Source: Puniceicoccaceae bacterium 5H
Lineage (GTDB): Bacteria; Verrucomicrobiota; Verrucomicrobiia; Opitutales; Oceanipulchritudinaceae
NCBI GenBank assembly: GCA_009772895.1
Contig: WOUP01000004.1
Span: forward strand, 132,501 to 196,500
Length of the DNA stretch: 64,000 bases
Direction of reading: 5' to 3'
In this document: piece after piece, positions 11,197 to 49,505 of the stretch
Layout of the letters: each line of letters opens with the position of its first letter
Position numbering within the stretch: the stretch's first letter is position 1
Notes under the pieces: model-generated
Database searches by the model: none
What the model saw: the letters and a program-made list of their open reading frames with translations, nothing else
Told to the model about the DNA's origin: nothing
Position numbers and translations under genes: made by a program

Positions 11197-11733
11197 ATGA
11201 ATGCACTGCGCTTTCTGGCCCGCATCTTCGTCTCTGGCCTGCTGCTGACGCTGCCGGCGATCCCTGCGTTTGCCTTCAAGCCGGTCAACGCCCTCGAGCT
11301 GAATGAACGGCAAGTCGCCATCGGCGGTTACGACCCCGTGGCTTATTTCACCGAGCGAATCCCCGTCAAGGGCAGCCCCCTGCTGACCTATGAGTGGATG
11401 GGCGCTACCTGGTATTTCCGCACGCAGGAGCACCGACGCATGTTCGAGCAGGAGCCGACGCGTTTTGCGCCAGCCTATGGCGGCTACTGCGCCCTCTGCA
11501 TGCTCAGTGATCAGGAGCAGCACCGTCCGGGCGATCCCACGGTGTTTCTGATCCGCAACGGGCGCCTCTACCTGCTGGAAGACGCCGCGATGAAGGCTCG
11601 CTGGGAGGAGGATCCGGAGCGCTATATTGCCGAGGCTGACCAGCGCTACGATCACCTGCTGGATCTCTATGCCCAAGCGAAAGCGCGGGCCGATGGCACC
11701 CGGGTCGCGGCCGTCTCGCTCGTGGCGGATTGA
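11197..11733 (+). CDS. Exported YHS-domain protein
   Basis: A 178-residue protein with a signal peptide (MNALRFLARIFVSGLLLTLP, cleavage probably after AFA) and a YHS domain. The signature AIGGYDPVAYFTE is followed by TYEWMGATWYFRTQEHRRMFEQEP and RFAPAYGGYCA. YHS domains are small modules often tied to heavy-metal handling, named for a conserved Tyr-His-Ser; here the classic positions are replaced by the GGYDPVAYF form common in secreted YHS proteins. The C-terminal part is helical and has no known motif. An ATG at 11173 is an alternative start; 11197 is preferred because the signal peptide begins cleanly there. Function unknown. Confidence 0.8.
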   Translation: MNALRFLARIFVSGLLLTLPAIPAFAFKPVNALELNERQVAIGGYDPVAYFTERIPVKGSPLLTYEWMGATWYFRTQEHRRMFEQEPTRFAPAYGGYCALCMLSDQEQHRPGDPTVFLIRNGRLYLLEDAAMKARWEEDPERYIAEADQRYDHLLDLYAQAKARADGTRVAAVSLVAD

Positions 11734-11880
11734 GCCGCAGGCAGGGCAAGACGGCTTTACAATCTGCCTCCCCCGCTTGCAGCGTGGGCGCGTTGCGCTT
11801 AGGTAGCGCCGTGGCATTCTGCCAACCTGCAGCGCGATTTGCACGGCTGCGGAACGTTGGGCGATGTGCGTAACCCCTCT

Positions 11881-12222
11881 ATGTTTACCTGGACGGTCAT
11901 TGGCGTTGTAGCGGTGCTGCTGGTTGCGGTCTACGTGGGGGTGAACCTGCTCGCCCGGCAGTTCAAATGCCAGCGCAAGGCCGCGTTGGAAGCTTACGCC
12001 CAGTTGTCGGATCCACAGCTGAAGCAGCTGTTGCAGGAGGGGGACTTCAAGGGTCGCAAGGGCGCGATTCAGGCCGACGCCGCGTGTGCCGAAGCGGCGC
12101 GCCGGGCGTCCAAGGACGTGCAGATGTGGCGCCTGCTGGAGGAGCTGGGGCAAGACAGGAAAAGCCTTCGGGGCAGACTAGCGCTTGCGTATCTCAACTC
12201 TCTTCGTCAACAAGGATTGTGA
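11881..12222 (+). CDS. Small membrane-anchored protein, unknown
   Basis: A 113-residue protein with one N-terminal transmembrane segment (about 4-25, FTWTVIGVVAVLLVAVYVGV) and a basic, helical soluble domain. It has cysteines at CQRK and AACAE but no recognisable motif. GC and codon use match the surroundings. The 147 bases between the YHS gene and this start show no clear terminator, so the two could be cotranscribed. Confidence 0.6.
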   Translation: MFTWTVIGVVAVLLVAVYVGVNLLARQFKCQRKAALEAYAQLSDPQLKQLLQEGDFKGRKGAIQADAACAEAARRASKDVQMWRLLEELGQDRKSLRGRLALAYLNSLRQQGL

Positions 12223-13918: not shown

Positions 13919-13961
13919 TTCACGAGGCACGTCGCGCCGGCTCCGGTCGGTATCCCATTTC

Positions 13962-13991
13962 GGCACCCTGTTCGCGGGGTGCCTTTTTTTT
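13962..13991 (+). terminator. Terminator of the SSS symporter gene
   Basis: GGCACCC at 13962-13968 pairs with GGGTGCC at 13977-13983, followed by eight Ts. Confidence 0.9.
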
Positions 13992-14013
13992 GCACCGCAC
14001 GAGGGGGAGCTAT

Positions 14014-14100
14014 GGCACCGCTTCAAGGTGCTGGATCTGGGCGCGGAAGACCGGTGGTGTCGTCCGCTACGCTTCCTCAACCACCCGGATGGGGAGGCCT
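14014..14100. repeat. Fragment of the multi-hairpin intergenic element (copy C)
   Basis: Shares blocks in the same order with the two long copies at 46607-46853 and 47163-47408: GGCACC..CTTCAAGGTGC, then CCGGTGGTGTCG, then CTCAACCACC. It corresponds to their hairpins 4 and 5; the inner stem has drifted. It lies between the symporter terminator and the 3' end of the glycosylase gene. Confidence 0.65.
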
Positions 14101-45945: not shown

Positions 45946-46476
45946 ATGACACGTTACGTTGCCTGGCTCCGCGGGGTAAATGTCGGCGGACACAACAAGC
46001 TGCCGATGCAGTCCCTGCGCACTGTCCTTTCCGCCAACGGATTCGAGGCCGTGCAGACCTACATCCAGAGCGGTAACATCGTCTTCCAAAGCGGTGAATC
46101 CGACCGCCGCCAGCTGGAGCGTCAGATGACCGAGCTGATCGAGCAGGACTTCGGCTTCGCGCCCTCAGTCATGATCATCACGGGAGAGGAGCTGCACGCA
46201 GCGGTCGAACGCAACCCCTTCCCCGAAGTGGCCGACACCCCGAAGCACCTGCACGTGAACTTCCTCGGCGATACGCCCACCCACGTAAACTGGGATTCGC
46301 TGGAAGCCTCCCGCGACAGCGAACGCTATGAACTGGTCGATCGCGTTTTTTACCTGCACGTGCCTGGCAGCATCTGGGCCTCGAAGCTCGCCGCCAAAGT
46401 CGAACGCTGCCTCGGCGTGCCTGTCACCAGCCGCAACTGGCGCACCGTCTGCAAAGTCCGCGCCATGCTCGCGTGA
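45946..46476 (+). CDS. DUF1697 family protein
   Basis: A 176-residue cytoplasmic protein of the DUF1697 family. The N-terminal signature YVAWLRGVNVGGHNKLPMQ and the segment TYIQSGNIVFQS are typical, as is the C-terminal SNRNWRTVCKVRAM-like block (here TSRNWRTVCKVRAML). The biochemical role of the family is unknown. It lies 88 bases after the glucoamylase gene. The non-coding repeat region begins immediately downstream. Confidence 0.9.
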   Translation: MTRYVAWLRGVNVGGHNKLPMQSLRTVLSANGFEAVQTYIQSGNIVFQSGESDRRQLERQMTELIEQDFGFAPSVMIITGEELHAAVERNPFPEVADTPKHLHVNFLGDTPTHVNWDSLEASRDSERYELVDRVFYLHVPGSIWASKLAAKVERCLGVPVTSRNWRTVCKVRAMLA

Positions 46477-46606
46477 CGGGGGTAACGCGCGGCGTCCGTG
46501 CTGGTCGTGGCGGGTCATCGCGTCTTGGGATGCGCAGCATTCCGCCGCTTTTCTAGCGCGAGCGTGGGCGGACCTGCGGATATTTGGCTGGCAATTCGCG
46601 CTGTCG

Positions 46607-46853
46607 CATCCCGGCGGGATGCCAGCCTTTAGCCGGTGGTTGAGGACGCGCAGCGTCCGACACCACCGGTTGCCTGATACGCCGTAGTCTGCACCCCGAA
46701 GGGCGTGCCACCGTAGGGGGAAGACTGCGCCGTTGCTGGCACCTTTTCAAGGTGCGGTCATGGTGGATGGAAATCCGGTGGTGTCGCCGCAGAGGCGGCT
46801 CAACCACCGGCTATAGGCTACGACCCCTCCGGGGTCGCGTGCCCGTCGCGGAG
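46607..46853. repeat. Multi-hairpin intergenic element, copy A (247 bp)
   Basis: A chain of about six hairpins: CATCCCGGCGGGATG (46607-46621); a nested stem with outer CCGGTGGT/ACCACCGG (46633-46640/46662-46669) and inner GGACGC/GCGTCC; GCAC-CCC/GGG-GTGC (46691-46708); GCACCTT/AAGGTGC (46739-46755); a second nested stem with outer CCGGTGGT/ACCACCGG (46775-46782/46803-46810) and inner CGCC/GGCG; and CGACCCC/GGGGTCG (46821-46837). Nearly identical to copy B. Confidence 0.85.
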
Positions 46854-46898
46854 GGAGCGGTAGGGCGCGGGGGCCGTGCAAGCCGATGCGTTTTGAGT

Positions 46899-46919
46899 GC
46901 TGAGCTTAGCTCAGCTTTT
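46899..46919 (+). terminator. Terminator-like hairpin in the repeat region
   Basis: Perfect 7-bp stem GCTGAGC/GCTCAGC with loop TTA and a following TTTTC. It comes 46 bases after copy A, so it could end a transcript that runs through the element. Confidence 0.5.
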
Positions 46920-47162
46920 CCTAGCGGAGTCGGAAAATCTATACGCCTCGTTTTCGTCTGCGATTGAGCGCTGATTTGCTGTTTCTCGCGAGGGAGGTTC
47001 GCCGTCAAAGCGGAGTCGCTTCGCACTCAAAATAGGTTCCGTGGCCGTCGAAAACGCACTTGCTCGGTGTTGCGTCCAATGCGGAAAAGCGGCGGGATAC
47101 GCCGCACTCCAAGGCGCGTTGGGTGCTTGGTGGCGTGCATGGAGACGGCGCCCTACTTTCAG

Positions 47163-47408
47163 CATCCCGGCGGGATGCCAGCCTTTAGCCGGTGGTTGAG
47201 GACGCGCAGCGTCCGACACTACCGGTTGCCTGATACGCCGTGGTCTGCACCCCGAAGGGTGTGCCACCGTAGCGGGAGACTGCGCCGTTGCTGGCACCTC
47301 TTCAAGGTGCGGTCGTGGTGGATGGAAACCCGGTGGTGTCGCCGCAGAGGCGGCTCAACCGCCGGCTACAGGCTGTGACCCCTCCGGGGTCGCGTGCCCG
47401 TCGCGGAG
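47163..47408. repeat. Multi-hairpin intergenic element, copy B (246 bp)
   Basis: Direct repeat of copy A, same orientation, differing at a small number of positions and one single-base length difference. In both nested stems the outer arm differs from copy A at one base (ACTACCGG for ACCACCGG; ACCGCCGG for ACCACCGG), and each change leaves a G-U pair rather than a mismatch in one folded RNA strand. Confidence 0.85.
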
Positions 47409-47549
47409 TGGGCGGCGGGGCGCGGGTGTCATCCAAGACGCGTTGGGTGGCCGGCGTCATCTCCAGAGAAGCCCGTCTCGGGAGGAAGCTAAAGTGGCGT
47501 TATTTTTAGGTAGAATCTCACCCTTCCCTCGCGCCACCTACGCACCCGT

Positions 47550-49505
47550 TCAATCGCCCCACTGGGCTTCGGCGGCCTCGAGTTCGGCGGTGGCGTTTTC
47601 CCAGGCTTCCATTGCGTTGTGCTGGTCGCGCTTGGTTTGTTCGTAGGCCTGCATGTCTTCCTTCAGGCCGTCGGAGCGACCGAAAAAGGCGGGGTCCTTC
47701 ATCTTTTCTTCCCAGGCGGCGATGGCGGCGTCGAGGCGCTCCACTTCGGCCTCGAGCTTTTCGACTTGCTGGCGCAAGGGCTGGAGCACGCGGCGTTTCT
47801 CGGCTTCGCGTTGGCGCCGCTCCTTGCCGCTGAGGTTGTCCGCGCTGCCGGCGGCGGGGGCCTTGCCGTTGTTGGCCGGGGCGAGCCCGTTGGCGGCGGC
47901 CTGTTCGGCTTCGACCTTGGCCAGATATTCGGTCACATTACCCCAGAACATACGGTGGCCGCTGGGGCTGATTTCGAGCACCTTCTGCACGATCGGATCG
48001 AGGAAATCGCGGTCGTGGGAGATAATGCAGAAGCCGCCGTCGTAGAGCCGCAAAGCCTGCTGCAGGGTGCGCTTGCTCTGCATGTCGAGGTGGTTCGTCG
48101 GCTCGTCGAGGATGAAGAAATTGGCGGGCTGGAGCAGCATGCGGGCGAGCGCCAGACGGTTTTTCTCGCCCCCGCTGAGCACCTTGACCGGCTTGAACGC
48201 CTCGTCGCCGCGAAAGAGGAACGAGCCGAGCACGTCGCGCGTCTGCTGTTCGGTGGCCGGGATGCCGCGCATGGCGGCCTGCACCACGTTGTCGTCCGGC
48301 TGGAGGGCCTCCGTCTGGTGCTGGGCAAAGTAGCTGATCTGCGCCTGATGCCCCAGCTCGCGCGTGCCGCGGTCCATCGCCTCCTCTCCGGCCATCATGC
48401 GGGCGAGGGTTGATTTGCCGGCGCCGTTGACGCCCACCACGGCGAGGCGGTCGCCCTTGTCGATCTTGAGGTCGAAGCCCTTGAAGAGGTGCAGGTTACC
48501 GTAGGCCTTGTGCAGGTCCTTGATCTCCATCACCGTGGCGCCGCAGCGTGGGGCGGGCGGGAACTTGAAGCTGACGCTCGCCTCGTCGTCCTCGATCTCG
48601 ACCAGCTCGACCTTCTCCATTGCCTTGATGCGGCTCTGCACCTGCCGGGCCTTGGTGGCCTTGGCGCGAAAGCGGTCGATGAAGGCCTGGGTCTTTTCCA
48701 TCTGGCGCTCCTGGCTCTCGCGCTGGGCGAGCGCGATGGCTTTGCGCTGGGCGTGTTCGGCCTCGTAAAAGCTGTAATTGCCGTTGTAGACGACCAGCTT
48801 GCCGCGCGAGAGGGCAAAGGTCTTGTTCGTCAGCTCGTCGAGGAACGCCCGGTCGTGGGAAATCAGCACGAGGCCGCCGGGGTAGGTGCGCAGGTATTGC
48901 TCCAGCCAGCGCTGAGAGGGCAAATCAAGGTGATTCGTCGGCTCGTCGAGCAGCAGAAAGGTGGGTTGCGCCAGCAGCAGTTTGGAGAGCGCGATGCGCA
49001 TTTGCCAGCCGCCGGAGAACTCTCCGCAGTCGCGTCCCATATCCCGCTCGGCAAAACCGAGACCGCTGAGCACCTTTTCGGCACGGGCGCGCAGCTTGTG
49101 GGCTTCGCGGGCTTCCAACTCGCGTTCCAGCTCGCCGATGTGCTCCAGCTCGTGGCGGTAGGCCTCGCTCTCGTGATCGAGCGTATGCAGGCGCTCGGTA
49201 GCCGCATCCACCAGCGCGTGCAGCTCGTAAGTCCGCCGGTCGGCCTGCATCACCTCGTCGATCACCGGCTGGCCGTGCGCCTCCAGGCCGTCCTGCGGCA
49301 GGTAGCCCAGCGTGGTGCCAGCGGTGCGGTCGATCCGCCCGCCATCGGTCTCCACGCGGCCGAGCAACACCCTCAGCAGGGTCGATTTACCCGAGCCGTT
49401 GCTGCCGACCAGGCCAATACGGTCGCGGTCCCCCAGGCGGGCGCTGATGCCATCGTAGAGCACCTTGGGTCCGTAGCGGAGGGAAAGCTGTTGGATCTCG
49501 ATCAT
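47550..49505 (-). CDS. ABC-F family ATPase
   Basis: Soluble protein of 651 residues with two ABC domains and no membrane segments, typical of ABC-F translation factors and antibiotic-resistance ribosome-protection proteins (Uup/YheS/EttA relatives). Domain 1 has Walker A GSNGSGKST and signature FSGGWQMRIAL with Walker B FLLLDEPTNHLD. An interdomain linker follows (about 235-325). Domain 2 has GVNGAGKST, LSGGEKNRLAL and FILDEPTNHLD. A charged C-terminal extension (about 540-651) forms a predicted coiled coil, as in YheS and Uup. It is probably monocistronic. The exact subfamily is not assigned. Confidence 0.93.
   Translation of the reverse strand: MIEIQQLSLRYGPKVLYDGISARLGDRDRIGLVGSNGSGKSTLLRVLLGRVETDGGRIDRTAGTTLGYLPQDGLEAHGQPVIDEVMQADRRTYELHALVDAATERLHTLDHESEAYRHELEHIGELERELEAREAHKLRARAEKVLSGLGFAERDMGRDCGEFSGGWQMRIALSKLLLAQPTFLLLDEPTNHLDLPSQRWLEQYLRTYPGGLVLISHDRAFLDELTNKTFALSRGKLVVYNGNYSFYEAEHAQRKAIALAQRESQERQMEKTQAFIDRFRAKATKARQVQSRIKAMEKVELVEIEDDEASVSFKFPPAPRCGATVMEIKDLHKAYGNLHLFKGFDLKIDKGDRLAVVGVNGAGKSTLARMMAGEEAMDRGTRELGHQAQISYFAQHQTEALQPDDNVVQAAMRGIPATEQQTRDVLGSFLFRGDEAFKPVKVLSGGEKNRLALARMLLQPANFFILDEPTNHLDMQSKRTLQQALRLYDGGFCIISHDRDFLDPIVQKVLEISPSGHRMFWGNVTEYLAKVEAEQAAANGLAPANNGKAPAAGSADNLSGKERRQREAEKRRVLQPLRQQVEKLEAEVERLDAAIAAWEEKMKDPAFFGRSDGLKEDMQAYEQTKRDQHNAMEAWENATAELEAAEAQWGD

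Follow-up and report, generated by a model that had tools for sequence, protein, structure and literature searches.

We consider it probable that the two hairpin-rich copies described here are head-to-head REP-type dimers at the DNA level, multiplied in trans by a transposase of the TnpA-Y1 subclass 1.2 type, and that a comparable layout exists around most of the genes of that type examined. The copies lie in what we call the window, which is the whole stretch of 64,000 nt that was analysed (Puniceicoccaceae bacterium 5H, contig WOUP01000004.1, positions 132,501 to 196,500 of the forward strand). The repeats are best read as non-autonomous REP-dimer (REPIN-like) DNA elements served by the transposase encoded on contig 27 of the same genome, and they probably hitch-hike on this small transposase gene. 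Among the functions that the initial annotation of the window had left open, the parasitic repeat is the one favoured by the evidence.

The copies in the window and their repeat family

A mechanical repeat search of the window returned direct repeats at 46606-46885 and 47162-47440 (97% identity over 116 nt and 90% over 167 nt), and by BLAST the two copies, A and B, were 95% identical over 247 positions. In comparison with dinucleotide shuffles, copies A and B folded with z values of -7.0 and -7.8, none of the 200 shuffles of either copy being as low, and the opposite strand of copy A folds strongly too (z -6.9). The description of two near-identical direct copies built from hairpins was thereby borne out, as were the nested CCGGTGGT/ACCACCGG stems and the one-base changes of copy B. 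The element had been given as 247 bp long: the repeat of that length is real, but the part shared by the family is only about 232 bp and the last 16 bp lie outside the family-model match. The features of the locus are the following.

46606 to 46837, + strand: copy A, whole REP-dimer element (about 232 bp), from repeat comparison and family-model match
46606 to 46622, + strand: left outer hairpin H1 of copy A (GCATCCCGGCGGGATGC)
46629 to 46632, + strand: left REP tag of copy A, TTAG
46633 to 46669, + strand: left REP hairpin of copy A, CCGGTGGT..ACCACCGG, with a distal hairpin at 46644-46658
46691 to 46708, + strand: linker hairpin H3 of copy A (GCACCCCGAAGGGCGTGC)
46739 to 46755, + strand: linker hairpin H3' of copy A (GCACCTTTTCAAGGTGC)
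46775 to 46810, - strand: right REP hairpin of copy A, inverted
46811 to 46814, - strand: right REP tag of copy A, ATAG on the - strand
46821 to 46837, + strand: right outer hairpin H1' of copy A
47162 to 47392, + strand: copy B, whole REP-dimer element, 95% identical to copy A
47189 to 47225, + strand: left REP hairpin of copy B, right arm ACTACCGG, the first G-U-compatible change of the initial annotation
47330 to 47365, - strand: right REP hairpin of copy B, right arm ACCGCCGG (+ strand), the second such change
13961 to 14089, - strand: third, degenerate half-element of the family in the window, core at 14051-14089 with 3 substitutions
45946 to 46476, + strand: gene of a DUF1697 protein, flanking copies A and B
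47550 to 49505, - strand: gene of an ABC ATPase with two ABC domains, flanking copies A and B

The two copies sit in the gap between the 3' ends of these two convergent genes, the second of which we read as 'ABC-F' from its domain order. The terminator-like hairpin reported after copy A exists (46899-46915) but is not above chance, since the copy region holds 2 terminator-like sites versus 1.3 (sd 1.3) in shuffles. A promoter scan of the same region, with 0 found and 0.1 expected, is uninformative either way. As a separate observation, a motif close to GGTAGGGCGCnnCGTCnACGC recurs outside the element (in the window at 46858-46884 and 47132-47156, and in the flanks of many copies of loci L034, L037 and L041), often inverted on the element's other side, and is perhaps another repeat layer.

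The position between two convergent 3' ends would suit an array of binding sites that the host uses for supercoiling, transcription end points or mRNA stability, with no current mobility, and the open text of PMC3733652 hypothesises such roles for REPs. We regard this explanation as improbable; host use is, however, compatible with a mobile origin.

Searching the genome with the copies, as had been proposed, revealed a genome-wide family with about a hundred further units beyond the pair in the window. The exact core TAGCCGGTGGTTGAG..GACACCACCGG occurs 113 times in the genome (4.10 Mb in 40 contigs), 60 times forward and 53 reverse, versus 0 for the reversed-pattern control. BLAST with the element gave 114 matches, in which many places are counted on both strands because the element resembles its own reverse complement. 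For the anatomy we used the 93 units found in the window and in 18 further stretches of the genome, allowing at most 2 substitutions per arm, a rule that favours invariance, and leaving out units too near a stretch end. They form 31 head-to-head pairs with the tags outside, and 31 of the 93 units are unpaired. Closer than 260 bp are 29 pairs, at 180-251 nt, and 28 were aligned over their full length; L035:1085-1388 was left out of this alignment because it joins two half-units of a sister family.

Each unit consists, in order, of the outer hairpin H1, about 10 nt with CAGCYT or similar, the tag NTAG, the stem CCGGTGGTTGAG..loop..CGACACCACCGG, a spacer and the small hairpin H3; the second unit then follows inverted, which gives the head-to-head dimer. 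The core stem CCGGTGGT..ACCACCGG encloses a variable, largely self-complementary loop. The whole dimer can also fold into a single long nested hairpin, the form drawn by the RNAalifold consensus, and partial copies and half-elements occur besides full dimers.

We compared this anatomy with what defines REPs. The tags are GTAG in 43 units, CTAG in 24, ATAG in 22, TTAG in 2 and GTGG in 2, so that NTAG is present in 91 of 93 and the strict GTAG in about half. High copy number is given by the 113 exact cores, with extragenic position checked for the window pair only. Two inverted REPs with the tags outside, recurring as a unit in the manner of a REPIN or BIME, are found in the 29 close pairs.

Copies were also seen within about 400 bases of the ends of contigs 7, 10, 14, 18, 21, 22, 23, 27, 32, 33, 34 and 39. 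Since many contigs start or stop near a copy, the repeats probably break the assembly and their copy number is underestimated.

Conservation of pairing and the question of RNA versus DNA

In the 28-copy alignment 97.8% of 1846 cells were paired, versus 35-45% for structures slid along it. Both sides were changed in 9 of 66 pairs and in 42 cells, compared with 4.0 pairs and 13.2 cells in shuffles (0 of 500 as high); for this test the alignment had not been adjusted to the structure, yet the structure was derived from the alignment. The outer hairpins account for six of the nine compensated pairs, one of them with four and the other with two. That the structure is kept, as initially proposed, is thus supported by compensatory change. 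Pairing counted inwards from the loop ends also exceeded permutation (at 3, 4 and 5 pairs none of 2000 shuffles reached the observed level), although the loops are bulged and this is a rough view.

The core behaves differently from what the two G-U-compatible changes of copy B had been taken to suggest, namely an RNA. Over eight core pairs in 93 units there are 6 departures in 744, of which two are wobbles, the very two noticed at first, and the other four are the mismatches C-T, G-G and T-C (twice). Near-invariant core stems, as observed, are what one expects if the core sequence, and not only its pairing, is read by something. In the 28 full copies we counted by hand 12 G-U versus 19 A-C cells, leaving out three loop-closing or constitutive wobble pairs; positions 1-5 of the outer hairpin have 2 G-T and 6 A-C. 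At the loop end of the outer hairpin, 33 units have T-G and none has A-C, and these two positions may not pair at all. Mean folding z over the 28 copies was -8.2 for the oriented strand and -8.7 for the other, and 10 of 28 favour the first (binomial p 0.18). The argument from G-U compatibility to RNA is therefore not supported, with only 2 of 6 core departures of wobble type, no excess of G-U over A-C and no strand favoured.

A structured non-coding RNA family, in which each copy would be a gene with a folded RNA, could draw on the very stable folds and on the compensatory changes. The covariation check proposed for it (RNAalifold consensus and pair counts) did find covariation, but compensatory change fits hairpins of single-stranded DNA as well as those of RNA. 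Rfam returned five matches, none at the gathering score (the best by E-value had 27.1 bits versus 197 needed), and, with no strand preference and no G-U excess, an element of the same family carries a transposase gene inside. We hold the RNA explanation to be very unlikely. Nothing marks one strand as RNA, and the copies may still be transcribed. The even split of the cores (60/53) was considered as an argument against RNA and dropped, as it follows from head-to-head pairing.

The transposase genes and the repeats around them

Three genes of this genome score above the Pfam Y1_Tnp cut-off. The one on contig 27 (11369-11812) encodes a Y1/HUH transposase of 147 aa (Y1_Tnp, E 7e-21) and lies within an element of the window family, whose left half is at 11201-11313 (model 1-111) and right half at 11813-11927 (model 123-229). 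The two linker hairpins enclose the gene, whereas in the dispersed copies only a short linker separates the halves, so that these copies resemble the contig 27 element with its gene replaced by a short linker. The 17 kb around this gene (contig 27, L034) hold about 20 copies, full or partial, which is unusually dense. The contig 14 gene likewise lies between the halves of a sister sub-family, with the tag GTAG, and the contig 2 gene lies between inverted units of a different stem (GTAGCCGGATGTC..GACTTCCGG at one end, CTAGCCGGATGTC at the opposite one), with the tags GTAG and CTAG. The three proteins are 50-59% identical to each other and group together in the tree (100/98). Sequence comparison also matched four solved chains named transposase, which we take to be of the IS200/IS605 type. 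No relative of the transposase was found in viral contigs.

We considered the class of this protein according to Quentin et al. 2018 (PMC6006769), whose open text divides TnpA-Y1 proteins into subclasses. There, subclass 1.2 has the motifs DH[IV]H, WQ and Y---Q--HH, a median length of 148 and a low gene copy number. The contig 27 protein is like it in all these respects (DHVH, WQ, YVLQQVEHH, 147 aa, low gene copy number). Among 35 relatives, our three own genes included, HuH, WQ and Y---Q--HH were present in 35, with lengths of 147-155, and the exact DH[IV]H in 31, the other four having NHVH, NHIH or DHAH. The transposase thus fits subclass 1.2, a membership that rests on the signature; in the tree, subclass 1.2 as one clade is weakly supported (42/78), as is its separation from subclass 1.1, and long branches meet. 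A cyanobacterial plasmid gene (L212) tried as an example of subclass 1.2 was rejected, its motif not being that of the subclass.

An ordinary REP/REPIN system of a class-2 RAYT, of the kind known in E. coli, Pseudomonas and Stenotrophomonas, would have the same anatomy as far as the open texts describe it, with tagged hairpins, head-to-head dimers and one gene between inverted units, and our own genes are indeed flanked by two inverted REPs, as in the definition of class-2 RAYTs. The protein, however, makes this explanation very unlikely. The class-2 motif Y---NP is absent, with Y---Q--HH instead in 35 of 35, and the contig 27 protein scores 60.8 bits with the NCBIfam IS200/IS605 model (cut-off 55) versus 19.8 bits with the RAYT model (cut-off 80). 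Its two sisters have 50.3 and 52.0 bits with the first model, slightly below the cut-off, and 13.2 bits and no match with the second.

To see how general the association of gene and repeat is, we scored inverted similarity between the 350-nt flanks of each gene and considered a score above 30 as an inverted repeat. In the first set of flanks this was found in 30 of 35 genes, the maximum in 175 shuffles being 28; the five genes below 30 were L111, L152 (right flank of only 56 nt), L158, L167 (29) and L179. In the second set, 17 of 20 subclass-1.2 genes had inverted repeats. Counted by hand over distinct subclass-1.2 genes that had not been chosen for their flanks, inverted repeats were present at 41 of 48. 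They were absent from 8 of 8 genes of subclass 1.1 (IS200-type), 2 of 2 of class 2 and 3 of 3 unclassified genes. The subclass-1.1 controls (6 plus two annotated IS200/IS605 genes) are few, L183-L186 being near-identical and L190 an uncertain member.

Because inverted repeats are not necessarily REPs, we made a separate count of tagged hairpins, defined by at least 7 pairs, N[T/C]AG at the foot and C as the first stem base. Such a hairpin was present on at least one side of 35 of 47 subclass-1.2 genes and on both sides of 16, that is, in 51 of 92 flanks versus 12 of 1840 shuffled flanks, and in none of the 14 flanks of the 7 subclass-1.1 genes. Both the 41/48 and the 35/47 counts exclude our own genes (L031, L032, L151) and the loci fetched by the core (L064, L111, L119); L192 is the same gene as L168 and was counted once. 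The totals differ because L182 (DHTH) is in the 48 and not in the 47, for which a different HuH motif was asked, and L190 is in the 8 controls and not in the 7. With the six excluded loci added and a single threshold (score above 30), the hand-compiled count of inverted repeats becomes 46 of 54.

The strict rule left 12 of the 47 genes with no tagged hairpin, including L153 and L156, which have the longest inverted repeats. L156 is a gene between inverted repeats of about 240 bp that are 86% identical, with the hairpin the opposite way and the tag facing the gene. A looser hairpin rule applied to all loci gave 68 of 106 flanks versus 2 of 106 shuffled, and 58 of the 68 have N[T/C]AG; with the same rule subclass 1.1 had an AG-C hairpin in 3 of 10 flanks and in 1 of 10 shuffled. 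The stems vary widely by lineage (for example CCGGTGGT, CCCAGCC, CCCGGCG, CCACGGG, CGATGGGT), each being self-complementary. As to Bacteroidota plasmid genes, that of Persicobacter has a tagged hairpin on both sides and that of Bernardetia neither a tagged hairpin nor inverted repeats.

These counts bear on whether the copies could be plain MITEs of an ordinary IS200/IS605 element, that is, internal-deletion copies moved as one unit. The gene-bearing and gene-less copies have both ends in common and the protein is IS200-like, as this would require. On the other hand, IS200/IS605 elements are without terminal inverted repeats in the open text of PMC2817692, as in our controls (0/8), the genome has two genes with this core (one per sub-family) versus 113 cores, and half-elements, partial copies and unpaired units (31/93) occur. 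We judge the MITE explanation unlikely and keep REP-type dimers served by the contig 27 transposase as the preferred reading.

Distribution, relation to known systems and meaning

Of 288 genomes of the phylum, three contain the window-family core, with 113, 15 and 1 copies; among the matches listed, it is also present in records named Planctomycetaceae, Verrucomicrobia, Lentisphaerae, Kuenenia, Terriglobia, Nitrospinota and Deltaproteobacteria. Such a patchy spread is as for elements passed between lineages. A related gene was absent at 77 of 80 loci with this core in other genomes, up to 8 kb being examined, as expected for dispersed copies and no proof of association. One locus (L111, 2957-3485), in an assembly titled Deltaproteobacteria that carries a Myxococcota tree label, has the window core next to a gene of subclass 1.2 whose protein shares 44% identity with that of contig 14; this may reflect horizontal transfer or a binning error.

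A Y1 gene of this type was present at E 1e-15 in at least 63 of the 288 phylum genomes. The hairpin AGCCCAGGGCAACGCCCTGGG occurs in 25 of them, several of the matches being the flanks of the gene itself, and at least 18 of these 25 have the gene at that threshold versus at least 63 in the whole set of 288 (p 2e-8 for an odds ratio of 12.5, with no correction for kinship); in 7 of the 25 it was absent among the candidates scored. One genome (G259) has 13 copies of AGCCCAGGGCAACGCCCTGGG and no subclass-1.2 gene at E 1e-15 among the candidates scored, so that the gene may be lost or missed, or another enzyme may be at work. A genome of the same class and another family (G316) carries its own module at at least 40 places (40 of 120 candidates scored), and its exact core 37 times, with 0 in the control. 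The same module search in seven other genomes found none in six and a single 27-base match in one. Dispersal was thus seen in detail for two genomes, not for all.

REP/RAYT and IS200/IS605 enzymes provide a general model of mobility via HUH single-strand chemistry. By analogy with them, the transposase would recognise the tag and hairpin of each unit in single-stranded DNA and would cut beside them through its tyrosine; units would thereby be moved or copied, gene-less copies would be multiplied in trans, and the multiplied copies would now be passive repeats, here in the gap between convergent genes. According to the open text of PMC8266576, the tagged single strand is what TnpA-REP recognises in E. 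coli, with cleavage at CT dinucleotides next to the hairpin. Movement of the units is what we infer from these enzymes; 27 joined-flank queries for empty sites, run on part of the own genome, gave 0 junction-spanning matches.

In their tagged hairpins, head-to-head dimers, about 100 units and a gene flanked by inverted units, the repeats are like the REP/BIME/REPIN and RAYT system ('REPtron'). They are unlike it in that neither motif nor profile places the transposase in class 2, the units carry two more hairpins (H1 and H3) in a dimer of about 232-246 bp, and the tag is loosened to NTAG, or to NCAG in related systems. IS200/IS605 (subclass 1.1) provides the closest NCBIfam model, but 8 of 8 genes tested were without inverted flanking repeats, whereas our own genes lie between inverted halves. 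TIRYT genes and their TIR families (Di Nocera et al. 2013, PMC3733652) are, in the open text, Y1 genes flanked by long inverted repeats of which the genome has further copies, and are alike in this; unlike ours, the 26 TIRYTs belong in the open text of PMC6006769 to subclasses 2.1, 2.2 and 2.5, and none to 1.2. The families GTAG-17, -19 and -20 of Opitutus terrae (PMC3733652) are alike in their GTAG-type REPs, dimers and Verrucomicrobia host, a comparison made by description and not by consensus.

With respect to published subclass 1.2, the open text of PMC6006769 has REP as 'no' in Table 1, describes the genes as generally without terminal hairpins, and gives as hosts mostly Cyanobacteria and Bacteroidetes. 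Here, instead, most genes lie between inverted tagged hairpins and the hosts are of the window's own phylum, plus one Bacteroidota plasmid. In open-licence papers, taken without figures or supplements, we found no literature linking subclass 1.2 with REPs. The anatomy is already known: the open texts document RAYT genes between inverted REPs from 2010 on (PMC2817692) and GTAG families, including those of Opitutus terrae, from 2013 on (PMC3733652). What is new is the class of the attached transposase and the multi-hairpin unit.

We think it reasonably probable that subclass 1.2 is generally REP-making, with inverted N[T/C]AG multi-hairpin modules whose self-complementary stems diverge between lineages and which multiply in the host. 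Naming the repeats has a practical use, as assemblies seem to break at them and reading frames from the mechanical list run across them. If the proposal is true, REP systems arose from the IS200 branch too, not only from class 2, and subclass-1.2 enzymes are intermediate between an insertion sequence and a RAYT. It would give a published subclass of HUH nucleases its missing DNA partner, would account for a conspicuous group of hairpin repeats found in the window's phylum and in some other phyla, and would offer many natural pairs of transposase and hairpin for studying how REP recognition evolves from IS200-type transposition.
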